Shown here one piece after another: positions 3,201 to 64,000 of a stretch of DNA of 64,000 nucleotides; the stretch's first letter is position 1, and each line of letters begins with the position of its first letter. Source of the stretch: Muricea muricata. Taxonomy: Eukaryota > Cnidaria > Anthozoa > Malacalcyonacea > Plexauridae. Location of the stretch: NCBI GenBank assembly GCA_963855995.1, contig OY979725.1, positions 12,504,383-12,568,382 on the forward strand. The letters run 5' to 3'. The notes beneath the pieces are model-generated. The model had not been told where the DNA came from. It saw only the letters and a program-made list of their open reading frames with translations, and searched no databases. The position numbers and the translations under genes were made by a program.

Positions 3201-6200
3201 ACTTGATAAATAACCAAAAACACACATGCCGTTCTAGTAAACTCGATGGCGTGCAGTCGATGGCTGGCGAGCTTGGGCATTGACCTGTTGCGATGATGCT
3301 TATACAGCTTTTACAATTTAACGTTGTCTTTCCAAAACTGTGAACTCTGAACGCGCAAGGGATGATGGATTGTTGTTTATTCAGGCTCTGATACTCACGG
3401 AATTAGCTTTTTATCAAGTAAATTTTCTGCCGTAAGGTTGAAACTATCTTCAATGATTGCAACATTGAAATGAAACAAAGTAAGAACGAGGATTTCCTGC
3501 CCCCTGTCGCTCTATCTTTTCTAAACATCCAGTTACAACATACAATCCCTGCTGGAAGCATTGCAAACAATTATCAGGCAGTCAATGTGTCTTATCTCGC
3601 GCGGTGTTGAATAAACGCGGTTATTTAAGTGATAAAGCAGCGTTTCGAATTTTGCAACTGCCTTTCGTTTATCGCGAGATTCAAATAATAAGATAGAAAA
3701 TAATTCAATTGTACGTGGTCTGTTCAGATAAAATGTTTTGATATCAGATGAAATCAGAGCAGACGAACTTGCAGAAGGTCTTTGTGTTGTTGCCTTCATG
3801 ATTGTGATAGCTTAGAAATATAGAAAAAAATTCTCTTATACTTGCATTTCTCTCAATCTAATGCTGGACTGAAACAATTGCGCTATGACTTCATTTCCAT
3901 CTTATTCAATTCAATGTCATTGATCGATAAGGAGAAACCCCAATACTGGCTTTGCTTTAAGGCGCGCGGTTCCAAATAAGTCAATTGTATGAGTCCCTTA
4001 CCTCGTAGATTTTGCCTTGATACAAACAGTGGTCGCCTTCTAAAAAGGTAAAGAACCAATGCATATAAGGGCACGCACATTGTTCAACTCCTAACTACAT
4101 GCGCGCCGCATTGTGTGTCAAAATCGCATGCTGACTTTGTCCTTTTACAGGGAAAGTTTATGTTGGCATTGCGTCACCCCATCACGAAAAATACTTCTGT
4201 TTGTTTGATAAGGGATAACCCTTTTTCCTGTAGCATCGGCTCTACGGACAATGCACACGGTTTTAGCGCGAAATTGTAGACAATATTTGTGCATGATTGT
4301 TTGGCGTATGGCGACAATTTGACATTTCCTGATCGAGTATGATTATGGCCTGCAAGGTTCTTGTAGTACACCCGTAATTGTAATGCTTGAGCTTTACAAA
4401 AGTATCGAACCCGCGCAAACCTCGTTCAATGTAATCAGCAAGAGATCAAACGTACTATTGAGCGCACATGTTGCTTCTAGCATATGTTGTGCTCGACAGG
4501 TCTTCACACATGACCATATTAAGGTCATAGAACTGCCATTTGCTCGATTACATTAGACTGCTGTTTAGCACGTTGTTCTAACTGTGTTACTCTTGTTATC
4601 TACAGCAGGTAAACGCCAGGCGTGCCAAGAATTAGCCCGTTTTGCATATTGTATTGTAGAGCGAATCGATACGAAATATCGATTCATCTGATCATTAGGT
4701 GACTAGACGAAGCTTCAAGCATGGGGAAGCCTGAAGAATATCAGAACCTAGTTCAATATTTCAAAGACCTTTAATAACATTTTTCAGGCAGTGTATCCCT
4801 GGCGAGTTTTGTCAAGCTTTGATGTTGGTCACCCCTAGCAAGGCTCGTATGCAAGATGCATGCTTCTCCTCTAATAAACCGAACCCCTCTTGTTAACTGA
4901 CGGCGTCGCTTATCAGTTTACGATATATTTCCTTAAACTTGTAATTGCACGGCAAGTTCCGGCACTGATTGGCTGATTACACACAACGTTTTCGGCAGAT
5001 ATCGTAATCAGTAGATTGCCCTTCTCCATAACGTTAAAGAGCAAAGACAAGTTACCATACCTTGGCACTCTTGACAGCATGCGCCCGGCTTCTTCACAAC
5101 GATTCCCCTGCATTGTTCCATCGAGAGACACACTTGTTTTTTACAGCCCACAACACCGCCCTGAATTGAAGAAAAACATCCGATTGAAATCGCGATCGCG
5201 AAAAGCCACCTGATCGAGGACATGATTGCGTTCAAAATGCGAGATTTCTTCACCACTGTGCGCTGGCGCCGGCCAGATAAAAGGCTAATTGTACAATGCC
5301 TTCTACTAGTTAGATTGTCTAGTGCCGTGCCATTGTTCACATGACATTTGAAACTTATCGCTTTGACCAAAAAGAGGCAGGCGTTAAATGTAAATTTTCA
5401 AAGGGTGTTTAGAAAACTGCTGTATTAGGGCAACGCAAATTTAGATTTGGAACCGCAGTTCAACATTGAATTCGTGTTTGACATTTGCAAATTCTGTTTT
5501 TGCATTGATATTCTACTTGCAATGTATGGCTTTGAGCCTATCGCTGACAAGCGTATTAAGTCCTTGACGTTAAGGGTACATGTACTTAGTGTATTTCCTA
5601 CTTCACATAAATCATTAGAAGGAAATCACTGCGAAAGATACATTTGGAATTTACGCATTCACCAGAAGCGCGAATGAGTTTGATTTTAGTGCTTCATCGG
5701 CGCCGCGGAATTGTGATTATCTGATTAGCATGTGGTCCGGACTTCCTCGCACTTAGGTTTAAAAATTTACTAACTAACGATCCGAAAATTTCATAATTCG
5801 GAAGGAAAGGTGTTGTCAGGCGATGGTGGGTTTAGGAAAATGTATACATTGCTTACATTCCGATAGCATCAGCAAGAAATGTTGTTAATAACATTATTAA
5901 ATATTTATGTTTAACGTGATTGATTAGGTTCGCAATGTTTTAGTAATCAGTTGTATTAGCACCTTGCCGCTGTTTCTCCTTGGGGTTTTATCTAAGAATC
6001 TGCTGTGTCATTAGCATTCAAAAATTTTGTTTAGGGTATAGTTTGTTGCTAATATTATTTCGTCTTGCTCTGAGCACAGGTGGCCGGGGCGCAGAATTAG
6101 CACATTGCTATTGCTATCGATGAAAAAACACGTCACGTGGAAGATCGTGTCTCCTAATTGCTTCAAATCATTTACTGGGTTGCTTCTGCGAGTTGGAACT

Positions 6201-14800: not shown

Positions 14801-15115
14801 TAAATTTAGCATATTGGCGCCACGCAACACGAGGTACTTGTGGCTTAAGTACATGTGAGATGCCATTGTTGCAGAGAACTTGTTTACTCCGCCAGAAAGT
14901 GTGTATGAGTTCTTTTAATACACTTAAAAAATCCAGGTAGATGTACTCGAAACTACCATAAATTTAGCATATTGGCGCCACGAAACACGAGGTACTTGTA
15001 GCTTAAGTACATGTGAGATGCCATTGTTGCAGAGAACTTGTTTACTCCGCCAGAAAGTGTGTATAAGTTCTTTTAATATACTTAAAAAATCCAGGTAGAT
15101 GTACTCGAAACTTAT
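14801..15115. repeat. 158-bp tandem duplication
   Basis: The block from taaatttagcatattggcgc to gatgtactcgaaact occurs twice in direct orientation (14801-14958 and 14959-15115). There are only a handful of differences (for example cgcaacacg versus cgaaacacg), so the duplication is young. Confidence 0.9.
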
Positions 15116-24532: not shown

Positions 24533-25189
24533 CTAAATAAGATTGTATCGTAGGATCTATCAGTTACAGTCTATTTTCATAAAATCTCACATTTTCCCAC
24601 CTTTTCTCGTTCCCTCCCCTTACCTTTTTTTGCATCCTCTTTCCCATTCTCTTCCCCAACTCTTCCTCTACCGGTTTCCGCTGCCCATTTCACCTCTTTT
24701 CTTACCCCGCCTCTTTTAACAACCCACCTCTCTTCCCACTTAGCCTCTTTCCTGTACTATTTTTTCCACCCTTTTCTCTTCCTCCACCTCACCTCTTCCC
24801 ACTCAAACATCATCCCCACCCCATCTCTCTCCTCATCCCACCTCTTTCCGCGTCTTATTCTCTTCTCACCCTCTTTCCCAGCTTACCTCTTAGCTGCACA
24901 GCAAGCGTAACATTTTTCGACCTTGTTTCGCCGAGCGAATTTCTGGCCATGCAACTGTATCTACCAGTATCCCGTAGTTCCGAGGCGAGTATGGTCAGCG
25001 TGGTGTTACAATCGCTATAAATGTACATATGACGTTTCCGTGGGCTTGTTGTGAAGCGAAGGAACACTCCTTCGTATAACCAGAAGATCTCCGCGCCAGG
25101 ATTGGCACGAACGTTACAAATAAGGATAATTCTATCGTCTACGTAGATGTTCTTATCCAATACTTCTACTTCAACTACAGCTGGTTTCC
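24236..25189 (-). CDS. Ig-superfamily protein, two consecutive Ig-domain exons (partial gene)
   Basis: Two exons, each encoding one Ig domain and each flanked by phase-1 splice sites, the usual module of extracellular Ig genes. Exon 25189-24887 (acceptor tattcttcag, donor GTAAGC) encodes an I-set-like domain: LICNV with the first Cys, FWLYEG with the core Trp, and LRDTGRYSCMARNSLGE with the DxGxYxC motif. Exon 24532-24236 (acceptor caatcttatttag, likely donor GTAGGT) encodes a second domain: VTLKCSH, CVWKKENQT, and KDDAGAYTCFMYF. It carries several N-glycosylation sequons (NST, NVT, NNT, NQT). The signal-peptide and membrane or tail exons were not identified. It could be an adhesion molecule or receptor; the partner is unknown. 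Confidence 0.85.
24580..24886. repeat. 300-bp polypyrimidine/polypurine tract filling the intron between the two Ig exons
   Basis: The plus strand is almost pure C/T (ttccctccccttacctttttt, ctcttcccactt and similar), so the transcript strand is purine-rich. It occupies nearly all of intron 24533-24886. Confidence 0.7.
24887..25189 (-). CDS. Ig domain exon 1 (I-set-like)
   Basis: 303 bases, phase 1 in and phase 1 out, encoding about 101 residues beginning GKPAVVEVEVLDKN. The conserved Cys-Trp-Cys triad and the DTGRYSC motif are present. The frame stays open upstream of the acceptor, but that sequence looks intronic. Confidence 0.85.
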
Positions 25190-27556
25190 CTGAAGAATAG
25201 AAAACAAGCATCTTATAACTCGTGGCTACATGATTACGGACCGTGGCTGCACCGGAAGAGTCAGTATAGCGTGCTAAGGATGGAAAAATGGCGAGAACCA
25301 GCTGGAATTTGCGACCTTTGCTACGAATATTGAATGATTTTTTCACCATGAGTGAACAACGAAAATCGAACCCACGATTTGGTGAAAGACATTTGTGCCT
25401 CATCACCGACTTGCCCTAGAAAACACGGATATAAGCAGTTTTTAGTTTAACCTCGTCTGACTCATCACCGATGGTGTTCCTTAGTAACACTGGAGCTTAC
25501 CCTGGAACAATTTAGATCTGATGAAGCCCCAGGGTGAGAAATTGTGATTGGCTAGTTGACAACATTTCAGACAACACGAAGGCGTATCTTAGACGTCGGT
25601 CAAATTAACATTTTGGCTATGTTTAGTTATCATGAAACAACGACACACTAAAAACTATACTAAGCTTTGCCTACCAATCAACCAGATCTTTGTTTTCTAT
25701 AGCCTTTTTAATGCCGCATAAGGCTCAATACTTAAGTCTCAAGGATTTTGCCGTCATAGTTCCTGCAGAGGATGTTTGCATTGGAAAATCATGTTACTAT
25801 ACACAAAACAAACACCTCTTAAAAACTTCCACATTTGCATACCTTCGCTGATATTGTTCGTCTTATATGCACCATTGATACACTTGTGACTGAAAATACC
25901 TAAAGCATAAAGTTTATAACATTACGAAACATGACAAGCGAATGTTGGGCATATGGTATGGTCAATGTGGAATCGATATCGAAACTCTTATTAGTTTGTT
26001 ATGCAGAATCGTTTATAACTTCATATGCATACCGTATGCCATTTGAGTGCATCCTAACCAGATTAGCACTACGTTTAACTTGATAAGGAAATAATACATG
26101 GTTAGCATATCGATATTGGTCTGTTTTCCAGGCGTCCTATGGATCTCCGTTTTGTGTTATTGTTCTGATCAACTATACGAACGATGTCCCTCGTCAATAA
26201 GGTACGAACGCTTCAATTATCAGTTTAATTTAAGCTAGTAATCCCAGGAATTGATAGCTGAAAAATTTCCGCGTAATTGTAGGATTAATATTTATTAACG
26301 CTTCTTGGAAGAGGTCGACATAACGATTGTTTTTAGCATTTGTGGCTTATTAAAGTGGACCTCATGTCAGTTCCTGTGGAAGACGCGATGCGTAAAAACG
26401 TTAAATTATAAAGATTGTATTCCATAACCGGATGTCGTATTGGTTTGAGTATTTTTATTTTCTGTGGAATCAAAAAATAAACGAAATAAGAGAGATGAGC
26501 CTAATTCATGGAACACTTACAGTATTGGCTTTTTGTTTGCGAAGTGGTTATACCGAATCGTATTTCAGAGTAAATTTACATTTGTGTACTTACGGGTACT
26601 TTGCCTCTTCGGATGCAATAATGTGAATATGAACCAATAAGTTTATCACCTGTCTATAAATCGTTAGTTCCGTTGCTGGAACTGGATTTAAGTTGGGCGT
26701 ATTAGTGTAGGTTTTACTGCAGTATACTCATGGCCGGCTCACTGGTTCACTGTTGGACATTGCAAGTGTGTGATAAGTCTGAACTGTTTGGTAGATCTGA
26801 AGAATGGCTTCTCTTGATTGACATGCATCATTTTTTGAATAAGCGTTGCAGACGTTTGACTATTGCGATCTTGCGAAAAATATCGGTATCGAAAAAAAAT
26901 TAACCGGTGACATCGATATTTTCGATATTTCTCTGCTTTGAAATATTTCGTATCAAAGCGGAATTTTTCTTTACGGGAAAACGTTAGATAAATGCACCGG
27001 CATTGAATTTACAGCTCGTACTTACAGAATACAAGCAGGCGTTCAACTTGTTGCTTTTTGTCTGGGGTTTTTTTCACTTGAAGAAATTGCATCGTGAAAA
27101 ATGCTCAAGTTTTCGGTCGTTCCAGAAAGCAACAATAGACATTTAAACGGTATTCTGACCTCAGAAAATGCTTCATTAAATATGCCATGTGGCGGCAGTG
27201 AGACCCCTACAACGAGCCGGAAGACAAACCATATCAGCCACGTCAACAGTTACAAATGTACATAGTTGTATACTATTTTTGTTTAAGTCACACTTCCCCC
27301 GTTTACCTTCGCACTGCAAGAAATATCCGGGACGGATTTGCTACAATTCCTATGTAATCTAGTGCAGTCACAACTCACAAGTACGAAAGGTATAGGTTCT
27401 TTCGCTACCTAAAACGATAAAACACAGTTTCACGTTTTAAAAAGGCCCTTTCTTACTGGTCAAAAAGTGTCAAAACGAATTCCGGTCTATCGTTCAGGTA
27501 GAGAAAGAAGTCGATAAACCTTAGCATATCGTATCTTTAGCAGTTTTCGTGTACGG

Positions 27557-30731: not shown

Positions 30732-33700
30732 ATGGGTGATTCTTACCAACCCGTGGCACAAGACCCTGAAGACAGGTATGGACTTATGTAAAAAAGATGC
30801 AAGTATTGTAGAAGCAGTACTTCCAGGGCTGTCAGTTTAGGCTGGCGAACGGCAAACTTTGCCAGACTTTTTCATTTAACCCCACCCAACTATGTGTATT
30901 TGCACATAGCTATGTTTTCTCTTTCACCATAAGCTTCATCACCATTGGCCAGAGCTGCACAAAAAACTAAAAACCCTCTACTTTTAGGCTGATTATAGTT
31001 TTAAAGTTGCCCAAGCACCGACCCCTCTCCCCATTGGTAATATGAATGAATATAATACTAGCTTAATGTTTACCTCTAGCTATGATCGACCATCGGACTA
31101 CCCAGATGATGAAAGCCTGATGGAACCAAGTTCCAATGGCTTCAACTACCGAGAGTACCGTAGGCCTGCAGATTCCTTCAAAGGTAAGGTTCAGCAGAAA
31201 TATTGGAAGGGAAAGCAAACGATGATCGAGAAACTTGGAAAACAACAAGATGTGTTCGTCGTGGCCGGTGATGCCGAGGTAGATGCGAGACTGGAGGCCT
31301 TTCGACAGATCCAGAAAACTTGTATTGATCTGCTAAGAGCAGTTGAAGTTTATCAAAAGAAGATATTTGGTAAGATCTAGAAATTTATATAGTGCATTAA
31401 ATTTTAATCTTCATACATGGACTAGATTTGCTGTTGTACTTTTCAAACCAAATCGCATTTACATCCTCTTCTCTGTAGCTTTATCCCAAGAGGAGAACGA
31501 GTATGGCCGGTTTTTACGCGAGAAAGGCTCGGTTGATAAAACGAAAGCTGGAAAAATGATGATCAGTGTTGGAAAGGCTCTCAGTTATACAGCACAGCAA
31601 AGGTATGGCAGTAATAATTCACATTTGTAAGTGTGGATAAGTTGGTACTAGTTTGGTGTTCTCCATAATGGCTTTGTGTACCAGTGGTCTACTGCAGTGC
31701 AGTTTGTAATTTAGGAGGTTCCTAGATTGGTGTAAGTTAGTAGGTTTCTGGGGCTGTTGTAGTTAGGTGATTTTGGTAAGTTGGCCAGTTTGTAAGTTAG
31801 TAGGTTCCTAGGTCGGTGTAGGTTAGTTAGTAGTTTCCGAGGCTGTTGCAGTTAGGTGACTTTGGTAAGTTGGCCAGTTTACAAGTTAGTAGGTTCCTAG
31901 GATGGTCTAGGTTTGTTGGTAGGTTCCTGGGCTATTGTAGTCAGGCAGTAATGGTAAGTTGGTCAGTTTGTAAGTTAGTACGTATGGTTTAGGTTTGTTA
32001 ATAGGTTCCTAGGTTGATCTAGGTTTGTTAATAGGTTCCTAGGTTGATCTAGGTTTGTTAATAGGTTCCTGGGCTGTTGTTAGACAGTAATGGTAGGTTG
32101 GTCAGTTTGTAATGTAGTTTGTTTGCAGGTTTCTACACAAATTCTGGTGTTACATTGATCAGTTAGCCAAATGACAGCTGGTTATTTAGTTGCATCATTG
32201 TATTTTCCACTCAGGTTGACCTTACGTGTTCCACTGGTACGCCTCTTCCAAGAGGTAGAAACATTTCGTCATCGGGCTATTGGGGATAGCTGGCAGACGG
32301 TCAATCGAATGGAAGCTTTACGAAGCGAGTACCGGGCAGCGCTATTGTGGATGGCCGACATTTCTAAGGAACTTGATCCAGAAGCTTACAGAAAGTTAGA
32401 CAAATATAGAGAGGTAAGCTCACTTAATATCTCTCCTTAACAGTGATCGCTTTTCTTACTATTGATGTTGTTGAATATATGGACAGTTATATAAACCTGA
32501 TTTTTGAGGGACTCGGTGTTTTTTTTTCAACGAAAACTACCCATAAAATCTTAAACTTTTATAGCTTTTTTGCATGTTTACCACTGAGAGCGTGAACTTC
32601 GCACAGAACAACAAGTGTATAATAAGCAATTTGCAATTGCAAAATCTCTGCTGCAATTACACGTTATCATGATGCGTTTTCCACATTTTCTTCATGCATT
32701 CTCCATTTCTCCTGTCGCCAAAAATATCCTTTTTAACTGTTGAACTTTGACGGACGTTTGAAGAATAAGATAATGTAATGCCATGAATTACTCTTAAGAC
32801 TGAAATCGATACATGGCGATGGGACCCGCTCGAAAATTTTGATCAAATTGTTGAAATCACTTGCACGTCTCGCGTTCACATTAATTATGTCACAATTTTT
32901 AAAAACATAGCTGCCGTACGTTTGATTTGGTACGATTCACAGCAACCCTACTCTGTTAACCTGACACAAGTTATGAAGTGTTTTCCATACATATTCTTTT
33001 TTGAGCTCAGGCATAAAATATGATTTTGGCTTAAAGATTAAATGCACTTGCAGAAAATTTTCCAGTTCTTGGTCGGTTCCCAGATAGCTAAAGCTACTTT
33101 TCTCCGATGGCGGCCTAGCACCGCGGCTTGCAAAATGTTTTATAACCAACGGTATGTTCGCGACAGGTTCAATCCGAAGTGAAAGTGACGAAGAAAAAAT
33201 TTGACAAATGTAAAGTGGATGTTATCCAGAAAGTAGACCTCTTGTCAGCCAGTCGTTGTAATCTTCTGTCGGCAACACTGGTCGCTTACCAACAGAGCTT
33301 GCTCAAGTTCTGGGAGAACACCTCGGGCTCCCTAACGAAGGTCTACGAGCAGTTCCGTGGCCATCCCACGTATCAGTTTCAAATGTTGAAACATATCATT
33401 CCCGACGATTCGTACACGCGTGAAAATGATATAGACGAGGAGGAGGAGGGTGAAGGAGGGACGGAGGGGATGAAAGAGGAACGCATTGAAGAAGCAGTAC
33501 ACATTGATGAAAAAGATGAGAATTCTAAAAAAGTTGAAGAGCAAGGCGCTGATGTCCTAGAAAATATGAACGATGACGATGACACTTTAATCTCATTGGA
33601 CAACCTTCCCGATAGAATGCCGCCACCTACGGCCGGCCAGAATCCAACGGCTGATCTTCTAGGGGGCTCACCAGCCAAACCGGGGGATGTCTCGTCTTCT

Positions 33701-35369
33701 GCGCTTGATCCGAGCTCCTCTGCTGTCATTCAGGGTAAGGATTTTGATTTTATAATTTTTAGGTATATCAGGTATTAACATGAATGTTCAAATGTGTTAA
33801 TGTTATTCGTGTGACTTTTGTGGAAGATTGTAATCTTGGAAAGCAACTGCTCTGTCGTTCTGTTAACATTTGAAGTATCTTCGTTTACCTTTAGTCTTCA
33901 TTTTTACCAATAGTACCACATGTCAATCGCCGTATTGTCATATTGTGTAAGTAACAATCTTTCAAATTATTTCCCAAGGAATTGATGATCTGCTAGGATT
34001 GTCTGGTTCCAACACAGAAAGTGGTGAGATGACAATGTCTGACTTCATGCTGAACAACACTGGCTCATCACTGGCCACCTTCAGCGGCGATAATGCAACA
34101 AACAATGGGGCAACAGGTACATAAAGATCAAATTTTTTTATCAAAGCAACAATTCCCTGGTGTATTTTTTTTTAATTTAAGGACAATTCGCAGTATTTTC
34201 GTACCGGTACCGAAATGGCTTAAAATATTTTTTATCTTTGACTGTACTAAAACAATTGCCCTCGATGTCTGGCTCAGGTCGACTCCGGCTTTTCGCCTTC
34301 AATTAACTATCCCATGGCCGAAATCTTGTTATCTACAGTATTTAACGGATTAACTTACTGACAACTGTATTACAGTATCCTTCATGCTAGCACAATATCG
34401 CCATTTTCGCAATCACCGTCAGAATTTTATTCACCATTATCAATGTCATTTCACTATTATCATTATCACAACCATCGTTATCACAGGAATAATCATCTTT
34501 TTTCATCCAAGGGAGTGCAATTTTCTTGCAACTTGCAATGCAATTCTGCTCTTGGCAGATGTAAAATTGGCAAATACAAGTTTCCATCAAAGTTTGCTAA
34601 TATATTTTTAACATACCAAACATTAGTCACAAATTTACATTTCTTAAGAGTAGAATTGTGTTGCAAGTTGCAAGAAAAATTGCAACGTGAGACAGGGCCT
34701 TAAGCTCGCCACGGCTCCATTCGCCACTCACTGTAAGCTTTTTTCCTGCTGTGGTATTTCACCATCATCCATGCATGATCTTCGCATCGCTTTCTTGGCC
34801 ACCCTCTCTTCCTTTTTCCTGTTCTGTTGGCAAACACTAAATTTCTATCTATTCTAAAACTCATCCCAGGAGGCCAAACTGCTCCCCAAGACTTGCTGAG
34901 TGCGGGCAGTGATCTACCGAGTACGGATGACTTGCTGTTTGGTGATCTATCTCAACCTGCAGAATCAGGAAACCCTGATGATGGCAGCAGCTTCACTGAA
35001 ACGTGGAACAAAATGTTCGGCAACGAACAACAAGCCAAGTTGCCCCCAAGCAACGACACGGCTGGCTCGCCGACGAAGTACATGCCTTCCGACTTGATCG
35101 ATGGCTTTGCAAGTCTGGACCCGTACGCACCGGCTGCTGCTGGCAACTTTATACCCGCACAGCAGGCAACCGGCGGGCTCAAACCTGTTGATTTACTGGG
35201 CTCCAGTGCTCCTGCACCCGCGGGACAACAGCCTGGCACGAGGCAGACGAAGCCTTCGGATGGAAACTTATCAACCTGGCTGAACTTGTTTTCAGACTTG
35301 GATCCACTTTCAAATCCCGATGCTATCGGGCAGGAAAATCAAGAAAATGACGCGAAGCGTTCTTGCTAA
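30732..35369 (+). CDS. ICA1: Islet cell autoantigen 1 (ICA69), arfaptin-homology/BAR-domain trafficking protein, complete
   Basis: Vesicle-trafficking adaptor; the ICA69 family binds Rab2 and PICK1 and acts at the Golgi and in dense-core vesicle formation (known for the family). Seven exons keep one frame: 30732-30775, 31080-31369, 31479-31602, 32215-32413, 33167-33734, 33979-34116 and 34870-35369. Together they make 620 codons plus TAA, longer than the roughly 480 aa of the human protein. An arfaptin-homology/BAR domain covers about residues 40-290, with strong matches such as LSQEENEYGRFLREKGSVDK, FQEVETFRHRA and KVDLLSASRCNLLS. A long acidic Glu/Asp stretch follows (about 303-360), then a low-complexity Ser/Pro/Asp linker that accounts for the extra length. 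The C terminus TWLNLFSDLDPLSNPDAIG is the conserved family tail. The start ATG lies in a catcATGG context. The neighbours are unrelated. Confidence 0.95.
31080..31369 (+). CDS. ICA1: ICA1 exon 2, start of arfaptin-homology domain
   Basis: Enters in phase 2 after ttacctctag and leaves in phase 1 at GTAAGA. It encodes KYWKGKQTMIEKLGKQQDVF and the IQKTCIDLLRAVEVYQKKI helix, the first BAR helix of the ICA69 fold. An upstream in-frame ATG at 31042 lies in the intron. Confidence 0.92.
31700..32130 (+). repeat. Minisatellite in ICA1 intron 3
   Basis: Repeated phrases aggttcctaggttgatctag, taagttggtcagtttgtaag and cctgggctgttgt recur four to six times with drift. The composite unit is roughly 100 bp and has a shorter 32-bp sub-repeat near 31990-32070. 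Confidence 0.75.
32414..33166 (+). other. ICA1 intron 4
   Basis: A phase-0 intron of 753 bp. No exon or repeat is recognised in it. Confidence 0.7.
33167..33734 (+). CDS. ICA1: ICA1 exon 5, end of BAR domain and acidic linker
   Basis: 568 bases, phase 0 in and phase 1 out. It begins VQSEVKVTKKKFDKCKVDVI, closing the arfaptin-homology helices, and continues into a Glu/Asp-rich segment (NDIDEEEEGEGGTEG, NDDDDTLISLDNL). The acidic part is probably disordered. Confidence 0.92.
34870..35369 (+). CDS. ICA1: ICA1 last exon with conserved C-terminal tail
   Basis: Phase-1 entry after tcatcccag, 166 codons, stop TAA at 35367. It includes repeated short acidic motifs (DDLLFGDLSQ, LIDGFASLDPY) and the family tail WLNLFSDLDPLSNPDAIG. 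Confidence 0.93.
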
Positions 35370-45030: not shown

Positions 45031-45515
45031 CTAGGAACAGTAACGGTAGGCGAGGCCTGGATGGGAAGAGCATGCGTTGAATCTACTGTAGTATATCTGT
45101 TGGCTTGGCCATTGGTGCGTTCTGTTGTAGGCGGTCATGTTTCCACGATGTCCAACGGTACAACAAGGATAGTGTCTGTAGATTGGAAAATGTAACGGAA
45201 CGGCTCGGACTTGTGTTGCCGAAAAGAATTGCAGACGGTTCAGGGCATCGCTTTCTGTTCGCTGTCGCTTGAATTTGTAGCGGTGGTTTTGATACCATAT
45301 TTTGATCTGTGTCGGAGTCAGGTTGATAACCTTCGATAGTTCCTCGCGTTCTGGCGCCGAAAGGTAGCGTTGTTCGCGAAAACGTTTTTCGAGCTCTTGC
45401 GTTTGCGTTTTCGTGAAAAGGACGCGACGTCGGCGTTTTCGCATGGCCGGCTCGGTTTCTGCATCTTCCTCCGTGGAAGGAGTTTGGGTTAAATCGATTT
45501 CCACGATATCTTCAC
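45031..45515 (-). CDS. NK2 exon 2 with homeodomain
   Basis: Phase-1 entry, 161 codons including TAG at 45033-45031. An acidic stretch ([10 protein letters not shown]) precedes a basic RKRRRR run and the homeodomain. The C-terminal tail is short and rich in Tyr, His and Arg. Confidence 0.93.
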
Positions 45516-47280
45516 CTGAAATTGAATACCGAATATAAGGACTTAGAGTGTAGGCAGTCCCCCAACCATGCATATATTTTTTAAAGATAGATGTACCACG
45601 AATTAGTATTATAACTTTGTCTCCTGAAGATTGAAAGACCAGAAAACATTGTGTCCTAGTCTTGCTTTCCCAAAGTAGACTAGGCAGGAAACATTGTTCC
45701 CTAGTGAAGTTTCTCAAAATTAACCAAGTAAACATATTTACTCAAGGTGGACAAACCAGGGAACATTGTGCCGTGGTTATGTTTCGCAAATTGGTGAAGA
45801 AACCAGGAAACATTGCTCCTAGTCAACCTTCCACAAGGAGGAGTGGACAAACCACTGAGAAAACATTGTTTCCTAGACAAATTTAACCGAGAAGGGCAGA
45901 CGCAGGAAAGACTGTTCTCTAGTCGTGATTCCCTAACCGCAGGAAAAATTGTTTTCTCCTACAATGTGGGAATCGAAGAAACGTTTTGATACATTAGAAG
46001 GCGATACAACTATGGAATGGTTATCAATTGCTTTACTGATTACTCCTGCGTCCAATTCTAAGCCACCACGCATTTTCGACCGCAATGTTATAAAACACTG
46101 ATCGAAATTTGAGCCACATACATCCATACAAAACCAAGCACTTGAGAACGATAATAGCGATTATTAATTATTCGTCGCTGTGTCGAGAGAGACATAGTTT
46201 GTATCATTCAAGAGTTGACGTCGTGGTGCATGCAATGCCTGTAGTAAATTTGTACATTATGAGCTCGATGTAAAATTTCAAAACCATCCTCAGAGATATG
46301 AAAAACTAGATTCATATTATTCTGACACTGTCGAAAACAACAAAAAATTAACGGTCTCGATCTGGATTCGGTATTTCGGTCTAGAAACCCGAAGACGCGA
46401 GTTCAAATCCCGGTTGAGGCAACGAATTTTACGTTGTTCTCTGCAGCGTTAGATTAATATGAATCTAGTTTTATATACTCGATAAATCAAGTGACCGTTT
46501 TTGACACGAAAAATCCCCCTCCCGTCGACTCCAGAAAAGCAGGATCTAGAAAAAGCCATCGTGTTTCTAGGGTAAATACAGCTATTCGTTCTTAAGTACA
46601 TCGGGAATAAACTACAGGCTATTGTACCGAGTAGTTTTATGTCATGTAGTCATGCATGTCAAAGTAATGCACAGTCCTAAAGATAACTGCATTTGAACTG
46701 GACTGATAACCTCGTCTTTCTTATCAAAACTGTCCATGCAAGAGAGTGATTGGAGTGAAGGCATTTGTACAATTATTTCACGTGCAAATTTCTTCTAAAC
46801 GTAGACAAGTGAAAGAGTTGTATGTGCTCAAATATACAAGCACACATTTTCGGTACTCATCTATCATGCATCCGAAGAAAATCCACAAAAAAGTCATCTG
46901 TGTTCCTTATATCAATGTTCCCACATAAAGAAGAGGCCAGAATCCCGCATTGCTTCCCAGGTTTAATTATATAGTTGTTGCACCTCCAGCAAAGAAACCC
47001 CATATTCAACCTCAATTTTTGCAACATCCATATAGAATGGTATATATTATTTAAACCTACTTAAATGCTTGTCATCATTTCTCTTCCTTTCTTCATCTCC
47101 GATTTCCGATTCCACTTTTCTCAATTCCAACTTCTCGTTCCTTTGTTGATTTTGTACATGATTTGATCTTTCGCCCTCGAAAACGGCCTCCGCGTTTGCC
47201 GGACTGTCATCGCGAAGATCGAGCAGTTCGCGGACGGAAAATGACGATCCAATTGTGCTGTTTTTATCGAACCTCGTCAT
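45031..47280 (-). CDS. NK2-class homeobox transcription factor (two exons, complete)
   Basis: DNA-binding developmental regulator. Exon 1 (47280-47061) starts [20 protein letters not shown]. The [10 protein letters not shown] stretch is the TN/Eh1-type repressor motif found at the N terminus of NK2 proteins. The donor GTAGGT leaves in phase 1 and joins exon 2 (45515-45031, acceptor attcaatttcag). The product is 234 aa. The homeodomain is at about residues 100-159: [54 protein letters not shown]. Tyr54 (HRYK) is the NK2 hallmark, and Q50 and N51 are conserved. Position 49, nearly always Phe, is Tyr here. An NK2-specific domain is not seen after the homeodomain. Closest by feel to Nkx2.1/2.2-like genes, but orthology cannot be fixed without a tree. 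Confidence 0.93.
45638..45955 (-). repeat. Degenerate tandem repeat in NK2 intron (ggaaacattgttccctag type)
   Basis: About seven to eight units containing caggaaacattgttcctagt-like words spaced roughly 35-65 bp apart. The core ggaaacattgtttcc is nearly palindromic. Confidence 0.7.
46350..46425 (+). repeat. tRNA-like fragment (possible SINE head or tRNA relic)
   Basis: The sequence gcgagttcaaatcccggttg at 46397-46416 resembles the T-arm/B box of a tRNA gene. Upstream, ttcgg and ccgaa can form an anticodon-like stem with loop tctagaaac. There is no convincing A box or acceptor stem, so it is not a working tRNA. Confidence 0.3.
47061..47280 (-). CDS. NK2 exon 1 with TN motif
   Basis: The ATG at 47280-47278 is chosen because the TN motif follows within 13 codons; the open frame upstream of it lacks a nearer ATG. 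The rest of the exon is charged (Glu, Lys, Arg, Asn) and probably disordered. Confidence 0.85.
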
Positions 47281-56179: not shown

Positions 56180-56400
56180 CACTGTAAATTTTAAGGGGTA
56201 GAATTTACTCCAAAATGGAGTAAATTTTACCTACGTTTGAGGTGAGAGAGTATTTGGAGTAATTTTTACTCCATTAATCGGGTGTAACTATTTTCATCCC
56301 GGATAAAAGTTACCCCCCATAATGGAGCAACTGCCCTGTTACCCGTCGCCACGGGTAAGAAATGCAATAGGTGCGAGAATTACACCTATGGATGGGGGCA
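56180..56400. repeat. Putative CACTA left terminus with sub-terminal repeats
   Basis: Words gaatttactcc, ggagtaaattttac, ggagtaatttttactcc and cataatggagcaac form alternating direct and inverted copies after the CACTGTAAA end. This arrangement serves as transposase binding sites in CACTA elements. It might instead be an independent short element. Confidence 0.6.
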
Positions 56401-57025
56401 ACGTATAACTAAATGCAAAATGGCCGCGTGGTTTTATCTTTTAGTCTTAAATATCTTTTGGTATTAATATTTTACTTTAGTTCACTGGAATTTAATCGTT
56501 GCCTCAAAAGCACTCAAAACTTTTGGCACTTTAATAATTATACGTTTGATATTATGTTACTCCTGGGGCGTGAAGTCCGGTAAAGTAAAAAACCCCGCCA
56601 GTGAGAGTCAGTGACGGAAAATAATGTTAACTGTCGTTGCTCGGTCGTTGATGTACTTTTGTGTATTTGTTTGACTTATTTCGTTGTTTTGTTGGAGAAA
56701 TTATATCGAAATGCACCAGAAAGCTCTGGTGTGATAACTAAAGGAGACTCAGGGCAAACGGAGACGCCAAAGAGGTAAGTTTTAGTTTACATAATAACAG
56801 TGTCTAAAACTCTATATAAAAGTAGAGTTTTGCTTATTTTGTCATTTAGTGCAGACATATATATCAGTAGACAATACAAGCAGCGTGGGTGACATAACCC
56901 ATTGTTAATATGGCTATTTATAAGCTATGAGCAAACAATAGGTCAAGCGATTGTAAACGTAAAGCAGTACCTTTATTGACAAGCAAATTTTAATTACTGT
57001 ATCGAGATGGTTTTTAAAAACGACA

Positions 57026-57266
57026 GGGGCCGATTGTTCAAAGCCATGTTAACGCTAACCCTCGATTAAAGTTTAAACCAGTGTTTTAGGCTGTGTATTT
57101 CTGTGCGTCTGTTTACTCCCAAACACCAAAGCAGAAAGCTTGTGTTGATTCAGACAAGATTTCCGAAAAAATATTTCTAAATTCATAAACAAGCTATTGG
57201 AAAATTCGCTTTTAATTTTGGGATGACCTGAGGCTTAAATTAACCGGCTTTTGAACAACTGGCCCC
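57026..57266. mobile_element. MITE with ggggccgattgttcaaa terminal inverted repeats
   Basis: Ends ggggccgattgttcaaa and ttgaacaactggcccc, 241 bp, no coding capacity. It has a weak relative at about 465-715. It lies 3' of the transposase gene inside the larger element, so it is probably a nested insertion. Confidence 0.7.
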
Positions 57267-57603
57267 AGGGTTATTAATTCTAGATTAGGTAAGGTGTGCA
57301 TACATTGCCAGCATAAACTTACTCATGATAATTGGCGAGTACTGAGGCCAAGGTAAATAATTGTTTCAGTATCAATTCACAGGTGATTTTGGGGGGAAAA
57401 CACCCCAGTAATGCATAAATGTGCATTACTGTACATGGCATCATGAGTTTATTGTATTTTCATCCACACAGATGATAGCTCAACGTTTTATTGCTTAGTT
57501 ATATCCAGGGCACGAATGTTAGGACTGGTCATGCATCCACCAATCATTCTCTAATAGGGTAACACAAAAGTCAACATTTTGACATATAAGATAGCTATAT
57601 ATA

Positions 57604-57618
57604 TTTATTATATTTATT
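57604..57618 (-). terminator. Polyadenylation signals of the transposase gene
   Basis: On the minus strand AATAAA occurs at 57618-57613 and again at 57609-57604, about 20 and 29 bases after the stop codon. Confidence 0.55.
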
Positions 57619-57637
57619 GTCTTGTGCAGTTGTATTG

Positions 57638-60600
57638 TTACACAGTTGGCACTTGGTACTTTGGGCAAACATGGGTTTTTACTTGTCCTTCATGCACCAC
57701 TTTAATTAAATGTAGAGGCATGCTGTATAGAAGGTGTTGTTGTTTGACCAACATCATGCTATTTGTCTCATTTACTTCATATGAGTTAAGGTGTCTGTTG
57801 AATATGGTTGTCAGGAGGCCTTCAGTGACCAACCATACATCATTCACATTCTTCTGTACCATGCATATGTCTTTTAAGACTGAAAATACTGGCATTTCTT
57901 CATCATCATTTTTAATCCAAAGAACACATCCACATTTAAATGTTGTTCCTTGAACTGAGATCCATTTTGGTCTAAAAAGATTATAAAACACTCCCCTGTA
58001 GTTATAAGAGCATTGTGAATATTTTTAAGTAAGAGGATTGCAGCGATGACTAAATCTAATATGATAATGATATCACTGACAATGATAATGATATCACTAC
58101 AAGTGCAATCATTCTAAGGTTGCGGAGTTTTCTAATTGTTTGTCTTGTTATAACTGCTTATAATATTCTTATTGAAATTAAGTCATGCATGATCATTCAA
58201 ATTGTCATTTGCATTAATGCACACCTTTACTTACTTTGTAATAATTGTTGTTTGTTGTAATGGCTCATGTTGTTCTTTTAGTTCTTGATAATATATCAAG
58301 TCACCAGCACTAGTGGTTGTACCTGCAGCATAGAGATGGAATGTGGTCAGTACATAAATTATATACAATTCATGTTTTGTTAGAGCTTTGCTTAGGCCTA
58401 ATTAATTGGTAAACATTTGGTGACTACAACTTGTTAAAATGCTTCAAAGACAAACATATTACTTTACTGGCTTCCTAATTATATTATCACTGAGTGAGAA
58501 TCAAAATAGGAGGCAGAATATGGGCTTCAATAGGGAACAACCTTTTTAAAAATAAGGCAGTTCAGTCCATACCTAACGTATACAAATTTTTAATTTATTG
58601 TAGCCTAAATTACAAAGACTATAGATAGGACAAATTTACCTGGTCCAATCTCAATACCCTTTTCCAAAAATGATGACTCATGATTCCCTAATGAATTCAT
58701 TTTGTAGCACATCCAACGTTGGTGACGCATTGATAGAGTATATGGCAGGTTAGTGAAGTTGCCAACTACAGTGCTCAATTTCTTAAAGTAATGATGTTTT
58801 GCTTCGTAGCGCATGCACCATGATCGAACAAGAGGGCCCAGCCTAAAAGTGATTGATTGTAAAATATTCAAATGGGTCATTCCAGAAATCATCTGACACC
58901 CCTCACATGATGGGGGGGGGGGGAGTTTTTGCTGTTCAGGGGATTAAGATAATTTTTTAATTATGGTATAGGTTATCAGGATATGAAATGGGGTAATGCT
59001 TCAAATTTCCTTCATGGGGAAGACTGGTACCTTTCAAAAAAGGTTATTGCTGTATCTAAAATACTGTATGCTAGAATTGTGGGTAATTATTTCAAAAGTT
59101 GGTAGCCAGGAATGATGGGAGCCTGTCTTACAATTTCTCCATGGTCCACTGGCTAAAAACATTGCAATCAATATGCATCTAGCTAGTGATATTGCTCTTA
59201 CATTACACATGGTAATTCCTTTTAATTTACCTTAAAATAATGCTAGGCATGTGGATCATAAAATGCATCTTAGGAATAATGGAGCATTGGGAGTAGAGGT
59301 TGCAAAACTCAGTGTGGTGATCCTCAATTAAAACCTGAAGGTATGCTATTTGCTCCTTTGACAATGTTGGGGAAAAGCAAATTGATGTGATTTCCAGCAA
59401 GGTCAAGTAAAGCTGCCACTTAGCATTTTCTGGAGGGATCAAATCACCTATGATCAATGGTAGATGGTTGGACAAGCACCACATCTGAACAGCTATAAAA
59501 AGATAGATGACTTCCCTCATTATCACTGAATTGCATTTGATGCGACGAAGCATAGATTGTTTGCAGTTAACTGAACACATTGACAATTTTGAAGGTACAA
59601 CAAATAAAGTTACTAAGGGCAGGGTTAGATTTGTATTCCTCTATTTGAAGGTTATCTGTGAGCTGACTATAAGGCAGGCTCATACCAGTGGGTCATTATC
59701 ACAGGTTTTTGAAAATTAAAACAGACTTTAAGCTCACCATGTTGTTTTAGGCTGTTGTCATTTGATGATAATTTTTGTTCTGTAATAGGTGAAGGTTTAT
59801 TCTTATCATTGTAATACCCAAAATCAAATTTGGCGATTCTAGTATTCAACTCCTCCAAGGTGAACAAACGATGCATTTTTACGAAATCTTTTAACATCTC
59901 TTTCATCTCATAGTGCAAGACTCCTTCCAAAATGTCATGCATAGCATCTGTAGGCAGGCCACCAACAACATGAAAAAATCTGCTTTTATTAAGAATAGAT
60001 CTTCTATTTATGCCATATGTTTTACTAAAGTGTTCGCCAAATGCCAAAACCTGGTCACAGCATTGTTCGTAGCCATCTCTTGTGCGCAGCACAAAATATT
60101 TTTCATGAAACTAAAAATTAAAGATAAGTGCTTAAAGTTTAGATAACCAATAATCTGCCAGCAATGTGCCAATTTACCTGCCTCACTTTTATCATATTTT
60201 CCTATAGTTGGAAGCCGATTTAATTTTTCTCTGTCTATAGAGCCAGATAATTTTACTCGCCACTGCCATTGTCGCCCTTGAACTATTTTAAGGGCATGCA
60301 TGGCAAAGGACTCAGAATAGATGCGCCCAACATAAATTTACTGTGTCTTAATGCAGGACAATATTTTGGTTAGAGTTAGCCTATCTTAAAATATTATCAC
60401 CTTAGATTTGATATCATCATCAATTCCGAGGCAGTGACGGCACTTACGATATGCCTGACAACCCTCTTTGAAACCTCCTAATAATTGAGATCCAGGATAA
60501 TCACCAGATGCATAGGCTATTGTTCCACGGAACCTCCTCACTGTGCCATTGATATGGAGTTCATGGCCTTCATCCTGAAGTGTGTTGATTGTGTAAATAA

Positions 60601-62586
60601 CTCTGTCTGATAATATATTCTGAAATTCTTTAATTATAACTTTGGCCATCCCTGGTAGGCTACATTTACTATTGCGAGAGGGGTGCCTATGTTCTGGTAG
60701 CAACAAGAATATAGTAGCTGAGAATAGTTGGTTATCTGACTACTTGAAAAACAAGGAAAGCACTTTCCCTGACGTTTTGAGCAAAAGCCCATCATCAAAA
60801 AGTTGGTTGTGGGGGATGGAAAAAAATAAATACACTGTACTCTACCTGTTCTAGCTTTTGTAAGTCTGCCATGAAAGGTTGAAGAACAGCATCTATCCCA
60901 TATTTTTTTATGTTCGATGTTTTGCAAAGGCATAGAAGTTGGATCGCCTTTTCTGATGACCTGTACATAGGTGCAATATTACCAAGAGTGTAGTAAAAGG
61001 CTCCTGAAAATATTCAATTATTTTAGTATTGGTACATGGAAATAGCGTTCATTCTCTGAACTACTACCCTTGATTTAAATTCCAAAGAGCGCATAGAATA
61101 TAACGAGCATAAGGAGTAGTTTTGTGCAAGTATATTAATTATGAATGCATTCTTAGATTACCAAGTTTATGTTTAGTTGCTCTTGATCCAAGGGGATTGC
61201 AGGTTTCTAGGTCATCATAATAAACCATGATTTGCAGTGCTTTTGAGTCAACGGAAAACAGCGGGTGATTTCGGAATTGTTCCCCATCGCAGTAGTCTCT
61301 AATAAGGCCATCAGAGCTCTTATGAGGATTTTCCACCTTCAAATAAGAAACATTATGTAACCCTAACCTAACTGGTTCTGCAGAAACTCTAGCAAGCAAG
61401 TTTCTCATCCTACCTGGTCAAACACAAACTCGTCATTTAGAAGTGATTCCAGGCTGTCAAGGATTGAAATGTAATAGGCATCATCAGTGGAATTGCATGG
61501 TTGCAGTACTCCTCTTTTCCTTTTGTATACTTCTTTTTCGCCTAGAACAATTTTTCGAGGTTCCTGTCAATTTGCAAAAATGTTATTAGTTTTTCTGAGC
61601 AAGAAAACAATACCAAGGGTTTGCATGTGGAGGCATGGGCGGGGAAGGGAGGGGGGGTCGGGCATGATTTGAAATATTATGTAAAACTGTATATGAAAGT
61701 AAGAGTTCTTACTTTTAAATTAAGTGTCTCTTTGTAATAGGCGATTTGTTGGGCTTCGGTCTCCAATTCGTTGAATGGATTTGTGGCAACGTTATCTTCC
61801 TCAAAAATCTCGCTCAAACCAGGAACAGTGTTAAAATTTACTTCGTTTTCGTATAGGCATTGCTGCACCTATACACAAGGAAGAACATGATAAATGTTGG
61901 CAGGGCCGAAACTAGAACGTTAATTGGGGGGGGGGGTGTATATTCATATATTCATGTTCTGCCCGACGGATTTCTTTTCAAATTGATCAATTTGAATTTC
62001 ATTTCAAAAGAAACTCGTCGGGCAGAACATGAATGTATGAATATACCCCCCCTCCCAATTAACGTTCTAGTTTCGGCCCTGAATGTTGGTACCATACATT
62101 GTGCTGTACATGCAAAACAACATTCTTGTTCTGCATGTATAATCATATAGAAGATTGTTGTACTTGTACCTGCGTTTTCACAATAGACAGCGTTTCTTGT
62201 ACGACGCTCTTTGTATTAGCCACAACACTTTGAACTGTTGATTTCGGCAGGCAACACTCTTCTTGCAGTTTTAGTAAATACAAAGCACTTGCCCTTTTTA
62301 CTTGGTCATGCTCTACGTCATTCCCAATCATGTCTGGATCAATATCCATGTTGGCGACTGGCTGCTGGTGGACGTGAACTGCGGGGTTGTCATTGGTGAT
62401 ATTTGCATGTTTTTTTTTTATATGCTTCCTCCACGTATAATATTTTTTAAATGTATTGGCACAACCATCTATACCACAGACACAATGAAAATTAGGATCA
62501 TTCCGATGGCATCTCCCAATATGATTTAAAAGTAGATTCACGCTATCTGCGGCGAACGCTCCACGCATACTGCAATGCCAAGGCAT
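57638..62586 (-). CDS. CACTA/EnSpm-like (tnp2-type) transposase with N-terminal C2H2 zinc finger, 11 exons, intact
   Basis: DDE-type DNA transposase of the CMC (CACTA/EnSpm) kind. Exons: 62586-62170, 61868-61713, 61563-61414, 61336-61162, 61003-60846, 60574-60401, 60110-59738, 59492-59231, 58842-58640, 58322-58235 and 57971-57638, one uninterrupted frame of 829 residues. Domains: a C2H2 finger (CGIDGCANTFKKYYTWRKHI, completed by KKKH) near residues 56-80; the core with YYDDLETCNPLG (about 281-292), YASGDYPGSQLLGGF (about 373-387) and DAMHDILEGVLHYE (about 455-468). Their D, D and E fit the D-D-E positions of tnp2 by pattern. After the core comes MHFMIHMPSIILRLGPLVRS and a WCMRYEAKHH block, like the DUF4218-type region of plant CACTA transposases. 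No stop or frameshift, so the gene may be active or domesticated. Animal proteins of this type are usually annotated only as uncharacterised. Confidence 0.88.
59738..60110 (-). CDS. Transposase exon 7: catalytic C-terminal block
   Basis: Phase 0 in, phase 1 out. It begins FHEKYFVLRTRDGYEQCCDQ and holds FFHVVGGLPTDAMHDILEGV, where the Glu is the probable third catalytic residue, followed by a helical segment EMLKDFVKMHRLFTLEEL. Confidence 0.87.
61901..62081. mobile_element. hAT-like MITE inside transposase intron 1
   Basis: A 181-bp element with terminal inverted repeats cagggccgaaactagaacgt and ctagtttcggccctg, poly-G/poly-C runs, and an internal palindrome around aaattgatcaatttgaatt. It is flanked by a perfect 8-bp duplication aatgttgg (61893-61900 and 62082-62089). 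An 8-bp duplication and CAGGG ends point to hAT. Confidence 0.9.
62170..62586 (-). CDS. Transposase exon 1: start and C2H2 zinc finger
   Basis: ATG at 62586, frame MPWHCSMRGAFAADSVNLLL. The finger has CVCGIDGC, then HIKKKH as His pair. A second Cys/His set (WHCSM...HIGRCH) comes earlier and may be another degenerate finger. The donor GTACAA leaves in phase 0. Confidence 0.87.
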
Positions 62587-63310
62587 TGCGATTTGTGAAT
62601 GATTTTCTGCAGCTAGCTGCAGACCTCAAATTGTCAAGATCACAGAATATGATTATTCTATTCTGTGTCAAGGTCAAGGCTCAAGACGAAGTGGATGCTA
62701 GCCAATCAGGATACTCATTTTAAATAACATGCTCATTTCAGCCAATAAGAGTTGATAAAATAAGGCTGGCGCGAAAACAATTGTTCTTGGCCTCTTGCTT
62801 CGGGTCGCTTCCTGGTCAAAACAGTTGTCGTCTTTTTTTCTGCCGGAGCCTTTGCAGTTTCTACGGATATTTTTATCAAATATGTAAGTAAATTGTATTA
62901 AGAACCTTAATATTTACTTGTAGTGTATTTTAGAAATTGTTGCCGGTTTTTAAAAGATTTATTTTACGTTCTTATTGAATCTTGTTGTTGTGATTTATTA
63001 TACTGTTTTGCCATATTTCTGTCGTATTTTAAGTCCTTTTTGTTGCCTTTGTCTCCAAGTCAGGTTAACGTTTATACTTTTTGACCAAAAGGAGTCAGGT
63101 TTATTAACTTCTTGCTTGATTTTATTAAAGGCAGCTGTTTTGACCCGTCATTTTTACGTCTTTTGTGCAGTTTTAATAATCCTATATCGTCCCTAAACCG
63201 GGCCTTAGCCTCACGTAATGACTTTTTTCGCATTTATTGTTGTGTGAAACATAGCTCGTATAAAAAACATTACCTAAATTTTAATATATTTGGGGTTTTT
63301 TCTGCGCAGG
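62587..63310. promoter_or_regulatory. Shared intergenic/5' region of the divergent transposase and SAM-like genes
   Basis: The two start codons are 724 bp apart on opposite strands. A 5' UTR exon for the plus gene probably ends at 62883, where GTAAGT follows, with the next acceptor ttctgcgcag at 63309. No clear TATA box can be assigned. Confidence 0.45.
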
Positions 63311-63742
63311 ATGGAAGAGAAGTTGAGAAAAGACCTTCTCGGGGCTGGTCTTGAAGAACGCGTAATAGCTGTCTTGCAAGATCAAAAGGCAAGTCGTCGT
63401 TCATTGTTGTTCATCAGTTGTTTCTTTTTGAGTTTTCGGAATAAGGAAATCTATTAAAAACTAGTGGAAACACTGCGTGCAGACACCACTGATATTAGAA
63501 ACCATATAGTAAAAACATAGAATTCAAAGTCGAATTGATGAGTTTTGTAATTTACTCGTGATATACACTGTCACTGCATATATACTTTTATTTAGTTGAC
63601 CGACTACTCAACACTGAAAGAGGTCGAATTTAGTGCCATGATATTGTGCGGGATAAAGGCAGGAGATGTTGTAAAAATTAAGAAGATTTGTGATAAACAA
63701 GATCAGGGTTTATCTTCTACAGACCAGGCTCTATGGCTGTAG
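63311..63742 (+). CDS. Short protein with SAM-like fold, divergent to the transposase
   Basis: Exon 63311-63388 encodes MEEKLRKDLLGAGLEERVIA and VLQDQK. Exon 63596-63742 encodes LTDYSTLKEVEFSAMILCGI, KAGDVVKIKKIC and then a polar tail to TAG at 63740-63742; total 74 residues. The pattern (LGAGLEE ... L ... LKEVEFSAMILCGIKAGDVVKI) resembles a SAM domain by helix spacing; this is a judgement by eye. The intron between them starts with GC (AAG then GCAAGT) and ends tttatttag, a GC-AG intron. A strong donor GTAAGT at 63769 lies after the stop, so an alternative splice form that extends the protein is possible. Its position suggests an accessory gene of the transposon. Confidence 0.55.
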
Positions 63743-64000
63743 ACATACCACTGATATCAGTGACTGAAGTAAGTAGTGATGCGATCTCAATTTAATGAAT
63801 ACTCATAGCGTACTTTACAACTTAAGTTTATGATTTAAAAACTATAGTTGAAATATGTTTCGACTATATGTAGATGACTGTAAGATCAGGTTGTCATGGC
63901 GACATAGACCTCCCTAGCTCACTAGCTGTGAGAAGTATTTTTATTTTTAATGGTATCACAGAATAAACACCATCTTGATTGTATGGGTCAAAGAAACCTA
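63743..64000 (+). other. 3' region of the SAM-like gene
   Basis: Contains a possible donor at 63769 and an AATAAA at 63962-63967, which could be the polyadenylation signal. No transposon right terminus was seen. Confidence 0.4.

Follow-up and report, generated by a model that had tools for sequence, protein, structure and literature searches.

The 13-kilobase element that begins at position 56180 of the window, by which we mean the whole 64,000-nucleotide stretch of the Muricea muricata genome analysed here (C10:12504383-12568382 of a 453-Mb genome), is a genuine, CACTA-like DNA transposon, and a chance pattern is ruled out. In the reading that we favour and hold to be fairly probable, it is a cut-and-paste, CACTA-related animal transposon of the CMCT clade with an element-encoded accessory protein, probably TnpA-like in role. 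Recent mobility in this genome, which the first-pass annotation of the window had proposed, is supported by near-identical copies in different flanks, by defined ends and by 2-bp target-site duplications.

Results

Extent, ends and copies of the element

The first-pass annotation had placed a CACTG left end at 56180, and comparison across the genome confirmed CACTGTAAA at this position as the left terminus of a repeated element; the bare 9-mer by itself is not significant (2 occurrences in the window against 1.0 expected). A 301-bp query starting at 56180 returned at least eight genome matches (these counts are lower bounds), six of them 96-100% identical over the full length and two 79% identical over 93 bp. 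Six near-identical copies of one element of about 13.29 kb, compared through 20-kb stretches, lie in flanks that all differ. Both ends were found in five of them, and for the copy at C1:25.6M the final ~760 bp could not be located. Identity to the window copy is 98.5-99.7% in long alignment blocks, the exception being a 414-bp block in C46 (95.9%), and three copies carry indels of at least 100 bp.

A search to the right of the window for an inverted end, as the annotation had proposed, located it at window-equivalent position 69472 (C10:12573854), 5.5 kb beyond the window. The window copy is thus 13,293 bp long, and does not close within 1-2 kb as a short element of its own. The inverted ends are about 21 bp long and follow the pattern CACTGTAAATTTTAAG[G/A]GGTA:

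56180-56200, plus strand: left terminal inverted repeat CACTGTAAATTTTAAGGGGTA; TA on both sides of the element, a 2-bp target duplication
C10:12573834-12573854, minus strand, beyond the window: right terminal inverted repeat CACTGTAAATTTTAAGAGGTA, from end comparison
56180-56509, unstranded: left sub-terminal region with GGRGTAA / TTACYCC motifs in both orientations

Sub-terminal repeats had also been claimed, and they are borne out by the distribution of GGRGTAA or TTACYCC, a motif picked after inspecting the ends, with 10 occurrences in the terminal 2 x 330 bp versus 4 in the 12.6 kb between.

Elsewhere in the window, Pfam matches comprise a homeodomain (45034-45741), an Arfaptin-like domain (33146-33775) and an Ig I-set domain (24858-25415), which fits an animal genome. 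Tandem repeats occur at 14801-15112 (158-bp unit, 2 copies, 97%) and at 31700-31980 (89-bp unit, 3.2 copies), and an Rfam search of the window gave no match.

Target-site duplications

A 2-bp duplication flanks seven of eight complete insertions across three families, where a dinucleotide would match by chance about once in 16 per insertion; a 3-bp duplication flanks none of the eight. Matching flanking dinucleotides were found in four of the five complete copies of the main family (TA, TG, TT and CA), in a sister element at C1:20668107-20690072 (TA), and in two copies of the more distant family B, whose ends are CACTGTTATTTTCA (TG and TA). The CTA duplication anticipated by the first-pass annotation was rejected on these eight insertions, CTA being TA plus one further base. 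The only complete insertion without a 2-bp duplication is the C46 copy (C46:52553-66151), flanked by gt/ca, yet with 'caagt' at both sides, which could represent a rare 5-bp duplication. Right ends of the C1:97.9M element and of a third family-B copy were not found in the stretches examined. The sister element is 22 kb long and has like ends and layout, with transposase exons 57-77% identical to those of the main family.

The transposase gene

The transposase model runs on the minus strand from 62586 to about 57638 in 11 exons and encodes 842 aa. The 11 phase-consistent exons of the earlier annotation were retained, and its length of 829 residues was replaced. All ten introns have GT/AG borders in each of the six copies.

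62170-62586, minus strand: exon 1 (MPWHC...), two C2H2-like fingers, start codon at 62586
62563-62565, minus strand: codon 8, CGT (Arg) in the window copy, from copy comparison
61901-62081, unstranded: palindromic stretch in intron 1, a self-inverted match in 6/6 copies
61713-61862, minus strand: exon 2
61414-61563, minus strand: exon 3
61162-61336, minus strand: exon 4, first catalytic Asp (residue 280)
60846-61003, minus strand: exon 5
60401-60619, minus strand: exon 6, second Asp in GDYPG, and CRHC, the C(2)C motif
59738-60110, minus strand: exon 7, MHDILEGV block
59231-59492, minus strand: exon 8, HFMIH, the H(3)H motif
58640-58842, minus strand: exon 9, catalytic Glu in MRYEAKH
58235-58322, minus strand: exon 10
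57638-57971, minus strand: exon 11, stop codon near 57638

Between exons 6 and 7, a candidate exon at 60310-60178 was discarded, since the phase of its donors mismatches the next acceptor and since exons 6 and 7 join in phase and align with relatives. The palindrome in intron 1 is near-perfect (41-bp arms 95% and 56-bp arms 89% complementary) and resembles a short foldback element; because the self-inverted match occurs there in all six copies, it predates their spread.

The motifs follow in the order D280, D390 (GDYPG), CRHC, HFMIH and E in MRYEAKH when aligned with four relatives (L021, L022, L053 and L054), the catalytic residues being assigned from the CMCT motif pattern. Among the relatives that cover each position, the first D is retained in 3/3, the second D and C(2)C in 4/4, H(3)H in 3/3 and E in 2/3. 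D, D, CRHC, H(3)H and E are, where covered, common to relatives down to about 30% identity. Together with the CACTG..CAGTG ends, these motifs bear out the CACTA/EnSpm-like kind first proposed for the element. Pfam gave weak matches to Transposase_21 (PF02992) in two distant members, both under the gathering score (E 0.0071 over residues 248-413, and E 0.015), and the best match of the N-terminal C2H2-like fingers lies under the cut-off (E 0.0062). No transposase relative was found in a scan of viral contigs. One relative, L054 (2111-4609, on C29), is 832 aa long and one of 31 intronless transposase loci, with Lys in place of the catalytic Glu; a search over 6.4 kb found no CAC-type ends at a threshold of 15 matching bases in 20.

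The transposase frame is open in the copies on C10 (the window), C46 and C13, shifted in C1:7.3M and C1:25.6M, and interrupted by a stop in C1:47.6M. The first-pass annotation had called the window element apparently intact and its transposase free of lesions; this does not stand, owing to codon 8 and to an 8-bp insertion in the partner gene. Codon 8 is Cys in all five other copies and in the three relatives, of four, that cover the position. As the second cysteine of the first finger, its change to Arg would cost the protein a zinc ligand.

The partner gene

The divergent two-gene layout was recovered as described: the partner gene begins at 63311, head to head with the transposase, and extends through 8 exons to window-equivalent position 69032. 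Its exon borders are those of a predicted model.

62587-63310, unstranded: space of 724 bp between the divergent start codons, from the gene models
63311-63388, plus strand: partner exon 1, followed by a GC-AG intron (GC donor in 6/6 copies)
63596-63768, plus strand: partner exon 2, frame-shifted in the window copy
63727-63738, plus strand: 8-bp insertion, its placement ambiguous inside this stretch; absent from 5/5 other copies
Window-equivalent 64511-69032, plus strand, beyond the window: partner exons 3-8

The 724-bp space presumably serves as a shared two-way promoter. An uninterrupted partner protein of 525 aa is encoded by four of the six copies; the copy at C1:25.6M is truncated, and in the window copy the 8-bp insertion shifts the frame and leads to a stop at 63740-63742.

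The first-pass annotation had labelled the partner SAM-like. The 525-aa protein matched no Pfam family at E up to 1, TET/JBP included, and among PDB chains no hit was better than E 0.26. Searches with the partner N-termini of three lineages, with one further exon and with an alignment of four gave no SAM family or SAM structure in Pfam or PDB, the N-termini having been searched in Pfam at E up to 10 with filters that remove most hits above about 0.1. Among the PDB profile hits of these searches, the best was 7dww, named msDPBB_sym2 (E 0.0032). The label is therefore unproven. The partner N-termini have L...L...G....V...L and CGIK in common, which by eye we take to resemble SAM domains.

Recurrent pairing of the two genes

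When the genome was searched with pieces of each gene, 105 stretches matched the partner and 136 the transposase, corresponding to 43 partner and 88 transposase loci. For pairing, 75 partner and 88 transposase entries were used; the remaining 30 and 48 are additional exons of loci already represented. Of 448 transposase candidates, 120 were scored, and the number of pairs may therefore be an underestimate. The transposase is not a single-copy gene lacking terminal repeats, a possibility that had been named at the outset.

A listed related transposase lies within 25 kb of at least 23 of the 43 partner loci, where about 0.4 would be expected under an even spread, a figure that is somewhat too low because contig C1 carries most loci of both genes. 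These 23 pairs comprise six of the window's family and 17 others, partly near copies (three of family B, two on C8). The arrangement is divergent in 22 of the 23 listed pairs, the exception being a cluster that spans its transposase, and in 15 of the 23 the gap between the matched stretches is 4.3-7.5 kb. Orientation is constant across the paired families, whose partner proteins are about 30-57% identical. The partner is, then, a standing component of the transposon system.

We considered whether the partner loci might instead be an independent repeat family that inserts near transposases, as the 20 of 43 partner loci without a listed transposase within 25 kb could suggest. Such a family would have to account for the near-uniform divergent orientation and the recurrent gap just described, and for the main family's enclosing both genes in one pair of ends; we regard it as very improbable.

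In L053, a diverged two-gene relative, the transposase exons lie between 4429 and 110 on the minus strand and those of the partner start at 6155 on the plus strand; the only two CAC-type end matches found there (at least 15 of 20 bases) do not enclose both genes. The two copies of a diverged two-gene member on C8 (C8:5158206-5165822 and C8:5190635-5198251) lie exactly 32,429 bp apart for both genes, and are possibly a segmental duplication rather than two insertions.

Selection and age of the copies

Within the family, pairwise dN/dS of the six copies rests on very few changes and scatters around 1, ranging from 0.26 to 2.07 for the transposase (median 0.74; defined in 14 of 15 pairs) and from 0.55 to 1.93 for the partner (median 1.01; 12 of 15 pairs); there may be weak constraint within the family. 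Between families, dN/dS of the transposase is 0.13 (L022, 764 codons) and 0.10 (L021, 457 codons), at dS 1.6-1.9, and partner dN is 0.30 and 0.41 with synonymous sites saturated (L035, 104 codons; L040, 108 codons). For L028, a close partner fragment of 118 codons, dN/dS is 0.92, which speaks against constraint in that copy. Both genes are thus constrained during family divergence, and single copies appear to decay after insertion.

The first-pass annotation had offered the stop-free frame as a possible sign of selection on the window copy. Given constraint between families and none clear within the family, open frames signal youth instead. The window copy is a young insertion that is now decaying, both of its genes probably damaged, and proteins of other copies could mobilise it.

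The open 842-aa frame of the window copy might also be expected if the two genes were a domesticated host pair merely lying beside transposon ends. We give this almost no credence: in five copies whose flanks differ, one and the same pair of inverted ends encloses both genes, the transposase carries a frameshift or stop in three of the six, and the within-family dN/dS values are those given above.

A more serious alternative keeps the same transposon and makes the partner a passenger, or a factor for evading silencing, that takes no part in the transposition reaction. The partner has no DNA-binding or catalytic domain recognised by Pfam or PDB, and among the matches listed none of the 31 intronless transposase loci (assigned to this class by hand on the ground that each matches in a single long stretch) has a partner nearby, so transposases of the wider family seem viable alone. 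Against this, pairing recurs in constant orientation across families whose partners have diverged to about 30-57% identity, for which one recent capture would not suffice, and between families the partner dN stays at 0.30-0.41 where synonymous sites are saturated. We consider a passenger role unlikely, though it deserves some weight, and retain an accessory role in transposition as the preferred reading.

Discussion

Under this preferred reading, the transposase would recognise the CACTG ends, excise the element and insert it elsewhere with a stagger of 2 bp, as its catalytic motifs, the ends and the duplications suggest. In plant En/Spm, TnpA binds sub-terminal repeats. The partner probably acts alongside the transposase at the repeated sub-terminal motifs in a like manner, and the simplest reading of its co-occurrence, layout and constraint would be that it aids assembly of the ends; the role suggested here draws on co-occurrence and on the plant analogy. 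More tentatively, and with rather less confidence than the general reading, we put forward that the element may represent a two-protein transposition lineage, in which a DDE transposase is joined by a head-to-head partner unrelated to known families, a separately arisen counterpart of TnpA that would read the GGRGTAA array.

The accessory protein is apparently undescribed so far: among the titles and abstracts listed in literature searches, none reported that animal CACTA elements have a conserved partner, of SAM type or otherwise, and Repbase or Dfam may list such elements. 'SAM-like' multigene proteins in animal annotations may be transposon rather than host genes. The family is young, each gene is open in some of its copies and its ends are exact, so that it would offer a direct test of whether an animal CACTA element needs two proteins, like En/Spm.

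Comparison with known systems

In the parts of PMC12730594 drawn on here, the CMCT clade (CACTA/EnSpm-Mirage-Chapaev-Transib) is characterised by a DD(E) transposase in which C(2)C and H(3-4)H separate the second D from E, by 5'-CA..TG-3' ends and by duplications of 2-5 bp. The present element has this motif set, ends of the form CACTG..CAGTG, and a duplication of 2 bp in seven of eight insertions, the eighth showing 5 matching bp. The subject of those parts of the source is fungal lineages with TET/JBP genes, whereas the partner described here has no TET/JBP match at the Pfam threshold given above.

Among animal elements, SmTRC1 is described in the consulted portion of PMC1636069 as 4.5 kb long, with a main ORF of 560 aa, alternatively spliced products and ends that begin with CCC, a core at the ends proposed by the TRC authors; 2-bp direct repeats are given there for 7 of 14 SmTRC1 copies and for Tribolium and Aedes elements. 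By these descriptions, our element has in common with the animal TRC group its CACTA-related nature and the 2-bp duplication, the transposase there being of the Transposase_21 type, and differs from SmTRC1 in its CACTG ends, its 13.3 kb and its two divergent multi-exon genes. Since TRC elements already give 2-bp duplications, this size is not new. Other animal genomes contain named EnSpm/CACTA repeats that carry terminal inverted repeats; according to the excerpts used, these include the zebrafish EnSpm-N6_DR, a 346-nt non-autonomous element (PMC3485254), and named Daphnia CACTA repeats with copy numbers given (PMC2884549).

Plant CACTA elements, in the portion of PMC4158355 cited here, have 3-bp duplications, CACTA ends, two ORFs and a multi-exon transposase (up to eleven exons in maize), and a title in its reference list states that En/Spm excision needs two element-encoded proteins. 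Shared with plant CACTA/En-Spm are CAC-type ends, two element ORFs, a multi-exon transposase and DDE chemistry. A second element protein is likewise present, in the form of the recurrently paired 525-aa partner, which is likened to TnpA by role alone and, unlike in plant CACTA, is divergently transcribed. The duplication is 2 bp rather than 3 bp and the ends are CACTG rather than CACTA; because the element departs from the plant type in these two respects, we file it as CACTA-related, within the CMCT clade, and not as CACTA sensu stricto.
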